The notes beneath the pieces were generated by a model. The model was given only the letters and a program-made list of their open reading frames with translations, did not search any database and had not been told where the DNA came from. A DNA stretch of 64,000 bases from contig NZ_CP050191.1 in NCBI RefSeq assembly GCF_011745145.1, positions 2,900,296 through 2,964,295 on the forward strand, read 5' to 3'. This document shows, piece after piece, positions 26,572 through 29,858 of this stretch. Position numbers and translations under genes: made by a program. Source of the stretch: Mycobacterium sp. DL440. GTDB taxonomy: Bacteria; Actinomycetota; Actinomycetes; Mycobacteriales; Mycobacteriaceae. Numbering within the stretch: the first letter of the stretch is position 1; every line of letters starts with the position of its first letter.

Positions 26572-26591
26572 TTCCAGACTAAAGGGCCGAT
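26572..26591 (-). promoter_or_regulatory. candidate DosR (dormancy) box upstream of the universal stress protein gene
   Basis: TTCCAGACTAAAGGGCCGAT matches the palindromic consensus TTSGGGACTWWAGTCCCSAA at 15 of 20 positions, including the central GACTAAAG. Its distance of 47 bases from the Usp start codon and the gene type are what one expects for a DosR target. It has not been tested, and the mismatches fall in the conserved G and C triplets. Confidence 0.4.
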
Positions 26592-26691
26592 GGCAGTGTC
26601 CATAGGCTCCGGATCGACTTGGGACACCGACCGGAACACAGGTAGCCGACTACCCTATCGGCCGTTCGGGTTACGCGCGCAAGCTCAGCTC

Positions 26692-28263
26692 ATGGACGCC
26701 ACCGTCACCGGCTTGTCCCGCTACGCCGGAGCCGAACTGCGTGATCAGACCTTCAAGCGCTGGGTGCGCAGTGCGGCCGTGGTCAGCGCCGGTGGCGGCG
26801 GGATAGTCGGCGCCTTCCTGGCCTTCGCGGCCCCCATCGTGTTGAGCCCGGCCGACACTCAGCGCCTGTTGATGCGCGGCGGCACCGTACTCATCGTGTT
26901 CCTGGCTGTCGCGGTCCCGGTGATGATGCGGGTACGGCGTCACCGGTTCGCCGCCGGCACCGCCTGGCTCAGTGAGAACCGTCCACCCACTCCACGGGAA
27001 CAGCGGATGACGCTGGGCGCCTCCGGGGAGGCGGTGCGGTTGTCGGCCGCGGTGTGGGGTGTCGGTGCGGTGGTCTTCGGGTCTCTGGCGCTGAGTCAGC
27101 AGGTGTCCACCGCGGTGTACATCTTCAGCGTGGTGGCGCTTGGCGGCATCTCGACGAGCGCGGTCTGGTATCTGATCGTCGAGCGGGTCATGCGGCCGGT
27201 GTCGGCTCGTGCCCTCGACGGCATCGCCTCGGACCGGCGATTCGGGCCGACGGTCGGGCGCAGGCTCGTGATGGCCTGGCTGCTGGCCACCGGGGTTCCG
27301 CTGTTCGGCGTCGCCGTATTGGCGGTCGGCTACCTCGCCGACGTCGGCTTCCGGGCTCAACGCACCTTCGCGGCCATCCTGATTCTGGTGGCGGTGGCAA
27401 TCGTGGTGGGACTGTTCGCGATCCTGATCGCCATCCGGTCGGTCACCGAACGGGTCACCGCGCTGCGCCGCGCCCTGGCCCAGGTTCAGGCCGGTGACTT
27501 CCGTGCACGGGTCGAGGTCGACGACGCCAGCGAGATCGGGCGGCTGCAAGCCGGTTTCAACACGATGACGGCAGGCCTGGCCGAACGGGAGCGCATCCGC
27601 GACGCCTTCGGAACCTATGTGGATCGCGATGTGGCCGAACACATTCTGTGTGCCGCCGGGTCGGTGGAGGCTCAGGAGGTAGACGTCACCCTGATGTTCG
27701 TCGACGTCCGGGGATTCACCACGCTCGCCGAGCGGTTGCGGCCCACCGAGGTGGTCACCACGCTGAACCGGCTGTTCGAGCGGATCGTGCCGATCGTGCA
27801 CGACCACGGCGGCCATGTCGACAAGTACGCGGGCGACGGCCTGATGGCCGTGTTCGGCGCGCCCCGGCACCAGGACCGTCACGCTGACGACGCGCTGGGC
27901 GCCGCATTGCAGATCGCCGCCGCCGTGCACGACGAGTTCAGCGGCACGCTATCGGTGGGCGTCGGACTGAACTCCGGGCCGGTCGTGGCCGGAAATGTCG
28001 GTGGCGCAGGCCGTTTGGAGTTCTCCGTGATCGGCGACGCGGTGAACATCGCCGCCCGGGTGGAAACCGCGACCCGCCAGACCGGCGACACGGTGCTGCT
28101 CACGGCTGCCACATTGAGTCAACTCACCAGGGACCAAGGCGATTTCGAGGCGCGCCCGGGGCTGGCCCTCAAGGGCAAGACCAATCCGGTGGCCGTGTAC
28201 GCCCCGGCGTTTCAGCGCGCGCCGTACTCCAGGGGCGGTTCCGACGAATCGACTTTGCCGTAA
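26692..28263 (+). CDS. membrane-bound HAMP-type class IIIb adenylyl cyclase
   Basis: The 523-residue protein starts at ATG 26692. It has about six transmembrane segments (to about 245), a HAMP domain (about 245-300) ending in a linker GTYVDRDVAEHIL, and a class III cyclase domain (about 330-500). Catalytic residues are present: Asp338 and Asp382 for metals, Lys378 for adenine, and Asn452 and Arg456 for the transition state. The second purine-specifying position is Ser445, seven residues before Asn452. This Thr/Ser instead of Asp marks class IIIb, so ATP is the expected substrate. The architecture is that of mycobacterial Rv1318c-Rv1320c/Rv3645-type cyclases. Its 3' end overlaps the convergent kinase C-terminal fragment by 52 bases. 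Confidence 0.9.
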   Translation: MDATVTGLSRYAGAELRDQTFKRWVRSAAVVSAGGGGIVGAFLAFAAPIVLSPADTQRLLMRGGTVLIVFLAVAVPVMMRVRRHRFAAGTAWLSENRPPTPREQRMTLGASGEAVRLSAAVWGVGAVVFGSLALSQQVSTAVYIFSVVALGGISTSAVWYLIVERVMRPVSARALDGIASDRRFGPTVGRRLVMAWLLATGVPLFGVAVLAVGYLADVGFRAQRTFAAILILVAVAIVVGLFAILIAIRSVTERVTALRRALAQVQAGDFRARVEVDDASEIGRLQAGFNTMTAGLAERERIRDAFGTYVDRDVAEHILCAAGSVEAQEVDVTLMFVDVRGFTTLAERLRPTEVVTTLNRLFERIVPIVHDHGGHVDKYAGDGLMAVFGAPRHQDRHADDALGAALQIAAAVHDEFSGTLSVGVGLNSGPVVAGNVGGAGRLEFSVIGDAVNIAARVETATRQTGDTVLLTAATLSQLTRDQGDFEARPGLALKGKTNPVAVYAPAFQRAPYSRGGSDESTLP

Positions 28264-28858
28264 CTGCTGATGGTGAGTCCGTCGGGCCCAACCTCATAGC
28301 GTGCACCGTCGGCGGGGTTGGTGGCCACGAAGCCGTTGCCGGACCGTTCGGCGGTGGGGATCTGGAGATTGGCGCCGTCGCTGAGGCGCTCACCGCGGTA
28401 GGAGAAGGAGTCAGGGCCGCTCTGGCAGATCACCGCCAGTGAGGACGCGGTCCGGATCACCGCGGCGGGGGTGGTTCCCTCGAGGCAGCGCGCGGTGTGG
28501 TCGACGAAGCCCTGCTCGTCGGTGCCGCTGACGTCGGCCGTCGCCGAACCGGCCTTGGTGGTGCTCGTCGGCGCTTCGGATGTCGAGCTCGGCGGGGACG
28601 GTACGGCCAGCGTCTCGCGGGTGGAGGCACCATCGCCGCCACTCGCCAGAACTGCGGCCAGCACGGCGGCGATCCCGAACAGCCCCACCGACACCACGAT
28701 CAGGATGAGCTGGGCCCGGCTGAACCGCGGCTTGCGGGCCGGGGCCTGCGGTACCTGAGGTGGGGGCGGCGCCGGCGGATACGGGGTGAATCCGGTGTGC
28801 TCCGGGTTCGGGTAGATCGAGGAGAACTCGCGGGTGCCCGGCGGGTGCGGATGTGGTG
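28212..28858 (-). CDS. C-terminal part of a receptor Ser/Thr kinase: Pro-rich juxtamembrane, one membrane span, extracellular domain
   Basis: The frame reads without interruption from the adapter junction at 28858. A Pro-rich juxtamembrane segment (TPYPPAPPPPQVPQAP), a basic stop-transfer RKPRF and a transmembrane helix (LILIVVSVGLFGIAAVLAAVL) come first. Then come a Ser/Thr linker and an extracellular domain of about 115 residues with two cysteines (in TARCLEG and AVICQSG). This is the organisation of PknE/PknF-like mycobacterial kinases downstream of the kinase domain, and the kinase domain itself lies just across the adapter sequence on the same strand. A GTG at 28697 would be an artificial start of this fragment. 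It lacks its N-terminus only because of the assembly artefact. The stop overlaps the cyclase gene's 3' end by 52 bases. Confidence 0.75.
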
Positions 28859-29012
28859 CTGTGGCTTATACACATTTGAAGGTGCCGACGAAGAGGATAG
28901 TGTAGTTCACGGTGGGCGTAGTGTATGTGATGTCTCGCTGTATGTTGATGACGGACTGTAGTGTACTAGACTACGTGTATGTGTGTGTGTTAGTTATGTG
29001 TATAAGGGACAG
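28859..29012. other. Illumina Nextera adapter sequence embedded in the assembly (not genomic)
   Basis: Positions 28859-28877 match the Tn5 mosaic end CTGTCTCTTATACACATCT at 16 of 19 bases. The next 14 bases match the i5 adapter GACGCTGCCGACGA at 12 of 14. Bases 28892-28899 are AGAGGATA, exactly the reverse complement of the Nextera i5 index TATCCTCT (S503). GTGTAG and a degraded P5 sequence follow. At the other end, 28994-29012 match the inverted mosaic end AGATGTGTATAAGAGACAG at 16 of 19. The middle is TG-rich, low-complexity sequence unlike the GC-rich flanks. The block separates two parts of one kinase gene. The adapter sequences are recalled from general knowledge. Confidence 0.93.
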
Positions 29013-29858
29013 GGGGCGGGCGGCACCACCCGCCGCGCGGGCAGCCTTGGCCAGTTCACCAGCACTGGAATAGCGGTCCACGGCGTCCTTGGCCATCCCC
29101 TTGGCGACGACCTCGTCGAATGCGCGCGGTATGCCGCGGCGCATGATGCTGGGCCGCGGCGCCGGAGTGAACATGTGCGCACTCATCAGTTGGCGCAGAT
29201 CACCGGTCTCGAACGGTGGCCGGCCGATCATCATCTCGTAGAGCAGGCAGGTCAGCGCATAGACGTCGGCGGCCGGTCCGACCGGGCCACCGGAGAACCG
29301 CTCGGGTGCCATGTAGGCGCTCGACCCGATCAGCACGCCCGTCATCGTGACGCTGGCCTCACCCCCGACGTGAGCGATACCGAAATCCACCAGGTAGGCG
29401 AAGTCGTCCGGGGTGAGCAGCACGTTCTCCGGTTTGATGTCGCGGTGCACCAGGCCGTCGGCGTGCGCGGCGTCCAGCGCCGCGGCCACCTGCGTGACGA
29501 TGGCGGTGGCACGTCCCGGAGTGAGCGGGCCGTTGGTCCGCAGCAGTTCCTTGACGCTGGCGCCGTCGACCAGGCGCATGTCGATGTACAGGACGCCGTC
29601 GATCTCGCCGAAATCGTGCACCGGGATGACGTGGGGTTCCTGCAGCCGCGCCGCGACCCGGGATTCACGCCGGAACCGCGCCTGAAAGCTCGCGTCGGCG
29701 GCGATCTCGGTGCGCAGCAGCTTGACCGCCACCATGCGTTCCTTGACCGTGTCGTAGGCGCGGTACACCTCACCCATTCCACCGACACCGATGAGCGATT
29801 TCAGCTCATACGGCCCGAACCGGGTGCCGAGGCGCGAGGCACCGGGAGGCGGCGTCAT
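28971..29858 (-). CDS. Ser/Thr protein kinase, N-terminal kinase domain (gene broken by adapter insertion)
   Basis: Residues 1-282 are genuine; the last 14 codons (from about 29012 down) are adapter-derived. The kinase domain is complete in its key motifs: glycine loop GVGGMGEVY (24-32), Lys46 in VAVKLL, HRDIKPEN with catalytic Asp140, DFG at 158-160, activation segment ending in MAPERF, and the C-lobe Arg in DAVDRYSSAGEL. It belongs to the mycobacterial Pkn family (PknE/PknF-like). A ribosome-site-like AAAGGA precedes the ATG. The continuation of the gene, with membrane span and external sensor domain, is at 28212-28858. Part of the linker between the two may be missing from the assembly. 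Confidence 0.88.
   Translation of the reverse strand: MTPPPGASRLGTRFGPYELKSLIGVGGMGEVYRAYDTVKERMVAVKLLRTEIAADASFQARFRRESRVAARLQEPHVIPVHDFGEIDGVLYIDMRLVDGASVKELLRTNGPLTPGRATAIVTQVAAALDAAHADGLVHRDIKPENVLLTPDDFAYLVDFGIAHVGGEASVTMTGVLIGSSAYMAPERFSGGPVGPAADVYALTCLLYEMMIGRPPFETGDLRQLMSAHMFTPAPRPSIMRRGIPRAFDEVVAKGMAKDAVDRYSSAGELAKAARAAGGAARPLSLIHITNTHTYT

Follow-up and report, generated by a model that had tools for sequence, protein, structure and literature searches.

The ends of Tn5/IS50 are 19 bases long and inverted, and natural transposons carry, to our knowledge, no i5 core, kit index or P5 sequence. Illumina Nextera and Nextera XT read-through is among the closest systems described: the mosaic end followed by the i5 core, which is also the arrangement found here, is printed as a trimming sequence for read 2, alongside the mosaic end followed by the i7 core, in a source which also states that inserts may be shorter than one read and that the sequence following the insert can affect de novo assembly (PMC3906532). 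The indices S503 (TATCCTCT) and N706 (TAGGCATG) are printed elsewhere, in a source that shows the P5 and P7 ends with a different handle beside the index (PMC7589761). A literature search on adapters in assembled genomes returned no paper on this subject by title, and we make no claim that the subject is unpublished. The locus described here is a block of 154 bases at positions 28859-29012 of a window of 64,000 nucleotides, the whole stretch of DNA that was analysed. It is, with near certainty, an assembly artefact, in which Nextera adapter read-through has been built into the contig. The adapter match, the recurrence of the index elsewhere and the uninterrupted coding sequence of the relatives all agree with the original prediction that the block is not biological.

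There is an abrupt change in the sequence at 28859 and a second one at 29012. The block has a GC content of 0.45; its 100-base flanks have 0.72 and 0.73, and the window as a whole 0.663. The references used for alignment were the Nextera mosaic end, the i5 and i7 cores, and P5 and P7. Entered from the left flank, the block begins on the plus strand with a mosaic end (28859-28877) matching at 16 of 19 positions, with 3 mismatches. Then follow, in read-through orientation and on the same strand, the reverse complements of the i5 transposase adapter core (28878-28891, 12/14; core printed in PMC3906532), of the S503 index (28892-28899, 8/8; printed in PMC7589761) and of a P5 remnant (28900-28928, 20/29), the first 19 bases of which match at 16/19 before the resemblance fades. 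The right flank leads into an inverted mosaic end on the minus strand (28994-29012, 16/19), the only recognisable adapter part on that side. Block bases 1-60 align without gaps to the mosaic end, i5 core, S503 and start of P5 at 52 of 60 positions, and the genome search gave 87% identity over the same 60 bases. The i5 alignment score of the block is 88, whereas 1000 shuffles that kept dinucleotides (with a plain shuffle as fallback) average 17.1 and never exceed 30; reversed adapter controls scored 16 and 19 against the block. The right-hand mosaic end taken alone is less extreme, scoring 30 against a shuffle maximum of 29. This search against Illumina adapter sequences recovers, at the same coordinates and with the same counts, the two inverted mosaic ends that had been predicted, together with the adjoining i5 core, the exact S503 reverse complement and the P5 remnants; order, orientation and index hold as claimed through the i5-side alignment and through the presence of the same indices elsewhere on the contig.

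The TG-rich interior (28919-28993, no strand assigned) overlaps the fading end of P5. It has TG or GT at 32 of 74 dinucleotide steps and alternates between purine and pyrimidine at 55 of 74, and the block contains stops in all three minus frames. Past the fading P5, this 75-base interior matches neither adapter. Both i5 and i7 were tried as a right-hand tail and neither was supported beyond the mosaic end: no adapter is recognisable there, and of 1000 shuffles, 533 equal or exceed the tail's i5 score of 12 and 354 its i7 score of 13. The interior had been described as TG-rich, which stands, and as typical of degraded adapter read-through, which is weaker than stated, the scores behind the right mosaic end being at shuffle level. 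Degraded read-through remains a plausible description; we infer that the interior consists of junk, low-quality base calls made after the end of a fragment.

The block has counterparts elsewhere on the same chromosome. The single contig of 6,381,854 bases contains 12 mosaic-end matches with at most 3 mismatches, at ten sites, and none to the reversed control; 11 of the 12 have two or three mismatches and one has a single mismatch, so that none is exact. The nine further sites (L009-L017) lie at positions 730540, 1094316, 2788251, 4155178, 4225080, 4460626, 5308640, 5472339 and 5965507 of contig G000:C1. Adapter context is found by eye or by alignment at all ten, in some cases as i7 sequence, with little or no adapter following the mosaic end at L009 and L014. 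Four i5 sites have an index slot that aligns ungapped: in the window, at L015 and at L017 it holds the S503 octamer AGAGGATA exactly, and at L012 it is noisy. The slot is gapped at L016 and cut off at L013 by a run of N after the i5 core. N706 is exact at L010 and matches at 6/8 at L011, the two i7 sites with an index slot. The slots agree with a single index pair across the assembly, with S503 in 3/4 of the i5 slots and N706 in 1/2 of the i7 slots. A kit index recurring at unrelated places points to one library and makes other explanations very hard to sustain; the remnants look like those of a single dual-indexed library, S503 with probably N706. At L011 and L017 the adapter runs into poly-A. 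A run of 100 N is a conventional scaffold gap, and the exactly 100 N after the i5 core at L013 are a hint of one, no more, since N may also stand for masked letters.

In the window, the block splits a gene for a Ser/Thr protein kinase on the minus strand. The ORF list and a profile search place an N-terminal piece of 282 codons at 29013-29858; a C-terminal piece of 215 codons including the stop, at 28212-28858, is read after two leftover bases. The kinase domain is on the right flank (PF00069, 155.6 bits against a cut-off of 31.7), and a transmembrane-like stretch can be seen by eye in the translation of the C-terminal piece. The kinase ORF as listed, 28971-29858, ends in adapter-encoded residues: the tail SLIHITNTHTYT (28971-29012, minus strand), which follows the last genomic residues, derives from adapter and junk and could be deposited by a gene caller as if it were protein. 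Next to the kinase gene, and convergent with it, is a HAMP and adenylate/guanylate cyclase gene (26590-28263, plus strand); the two genes overlap at their 3' ends, the cyclase gene ending at 28263 and the kinase gene at 28212. A tRNA scan of the window found one tRNA-Met only, unrelated to the block.

The two flank pieces, searched separately, are covered by one ORF in all 15 of the best-matching named relatives, the first 15 (L132-L146) of 80 named loci, among them M. peregrinum, M. septicum, M. porcinum and M. setense. Each ORF was taken to run from where the tblastn match begins up to the first stop, irrespective of the start codon. The ORFs span 511-530 codons in 14 relatives and 605 in L142, the M. 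houstonense relative, whose ORF is at least 75 codons longer than the other 14 and has a longer stretch between the pieces. Over all 80 loci, the right flank was matched in 80 and the left, often partially, in 71. L142 was omitted from the linker measurement, its left-flank match ending early and leaving 421 bases between the flanks. In the other 14, the aligned flanks are separated by 54-126 bases with a GC content of 0.75-0.84, or by 22-100 bases once unaligned flank ends are subtracted; the linker is rich in proline (8-20 prolines per 19-42 residues). All 14 have this GC-rich linker at the place of the block, and the best match to the mosaic end anywhere in their loci reaches only 11-13 of 19. 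The single ORF in 15/15 relatives, together with a flank GC of 0.72 and 0.73, upholds the view that both flanks are GC-rich coding sequence of one gene. Judging from the uninterrupted linkers of the relatives, the true linker is very probably missing from this assembly, its place being taken by the block. An error in the database, not biology, almost certainly accounts for the apparent break, and the kinase gene should be treated as one of unknown middle rather than as a pseudogene.

How could adapter have come to lie inside a gene? Short fragments of a Nextera-type library (S503, probably N706) would have been read through their inserts into the adapter. Untrimmed, error-rich read ends might then have extended or bridged contig ends at a difficult place, rich in GC and coding for proline; the high GC of the flanks relative to the window is in keeping with this. 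Gap filling or contig-end merging would presumably have joined two such error-rich tails, putting a string of mosaic end, i5, index, P5, junk and inverted mosaic end where the true kinase linker belongs. Two observations sit awkwardly with an artefact of this kind: the adapter copy departs from its reference at 8 of 60 positions, an unusual number for a consensus of many reads, and the interior is left unexplained by any adapter sequence. Alternatively, the artefact might stem from a physical chimera, adapter or adapter dimer having been joined in the library, rather than from read-through and contig bridging. The two close mosaic ends at L010 and at L014 do resemble adapter-adapter products; the one-sided sites with poly-A (L011, L017) or an N gap (L013) instead resemble reads running off fragment ends, and we regard the chimera as improbable. 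These are two mechanisms that only reads would separate cleanly.

Far less credible than either read-through or a chimera is a real insertion of the mini-Tn5 or EZ-Tn5 type, bounded by the two mosaic ends. In its favour, these ends are in inverted orientation and each has its outer tip at an edge of the block, which is how a transposon is laid out. Nevertheless, no 9-base duplication flanks the block (left GATGTGGTG, right GGGGCGGGC), and none was seen at the other nine sites, where several edges are approximate. Only 116 bases separate the two mosaic ends, which leaves no room for cargo such as a transposase or a marker. The absence of a target-site duplication and of cargo room makes such an insertion very unlikely indeed. 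Taken with the i5 core, kit index and P5 beside the left end, as well as the i5 or i7 sequence at the other sites, some of them one-sided, it led us to reject this reading. Native low-complexity DNA of the kinase linker (a TG repeat, Z-DNA or a microsatellite), which the TG-richness and the alternation of the interior might suggest, is dismissed with the same firmness, because the left 60 bases are adapter, the linkers of the 14 measured relatives are GC-rich and, among the matches listed at E <= 0.001 for the other genomes of the 198 sampled in the genus, with at most four candidates scored per genome, none falls in block bases 61-154. The warning that claims of Z-DNA, a microsatellite or a transposon end would be wrong was thus justified.

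The search of the block against the 198 genus genomes, in which at most four candidates per genome were scored, gave a match at E <= 0.001 in four genomes, that of the window included. The matches listed for G053, G121 and G162, and for the other places in the genome of the window, are confined to bases 1-60; these three genomes have 105, 62 and 97 mosaic-end matches, respectively. Five of 50,697 phage records match, all within bases 1-60, and four of the five matches start or end at most 64 bases from one end of the record, H1 being internal. Among 72,556 plasmid records, two match internally, again within bases 1-60. Both are Deinococcus grandis plasmids (H6, AP021851; H7, AP021850), in which the adapter matches lie under annotated hypothetical proteins; these, too, may be adapter remnants. 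In viral contigs, the pattern of i5 core, 8 free bases and P5 occurs in 79 stretches: 76 of 81 matches come after an exact mosaic end, 79 of 81 run out no more than 184 bases before the stretch ends, and 9 different octamers fill the free bases, AGAGGATA being found in one case. This is the behaviour expected of adapter remnants.

The mosaic end, counted with at most 3 mismatches in the 198 genomes, which were drawn evenly from a larger group and include that of the window, gave 540 matches in 34 genomes, and the reversed control 9 matches in 9 genomes. Two or more matches were found in 24 of the 198 genomes and in no control genome; the ten single-match genomes do not exceed the number that the control would give, although one of them (G017) has an exact match. 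In the search of relatives, 4 of 31 genomes, the window's own included, have a mosaic-end match. It was in the genome of the window that matches were read in context. Single-contig genomes are among the carriers, for instance G162. We consider it likely that remnants of this kind are widespread and measurable in the genus, from one genome in eight (24/198) to one in six (34/198), and that they can give rise to false gene breaks and adapter-encoded tails that might be mistaken for biology. The count suggests screening single-contig genomes for the mosaic end; since 11 of the 12 matches on the present contig have two or three mismatches and none is exact, such screening should tolerate errors.

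Biologically, the block is ordinary: an artefact that splits a Ser/Thr kinase gene. Claims of a truncated kinase, a TG repeat or a transposon end based on it would be false, as would similar claims at the nine other remnant sites of the contig. It shares with Tn5/IS50 its 19-base inverted ends and differs in that it is too short to hold cargo, lacks a 9-base duplication and has a kit index next to one end. PhiX control sequence in microbial isolate genomes, as reported in PMC4511556, is likewise sequencing reagent DNA deposited as genome, the difference being that here an adapter fragment lies inside a gene, in place of a control phage genome. Compared with the read-through for which PMC3906532 prints its trimming sequences, the adapter at this locus has been built, with errors, into a single-contig chromosome.
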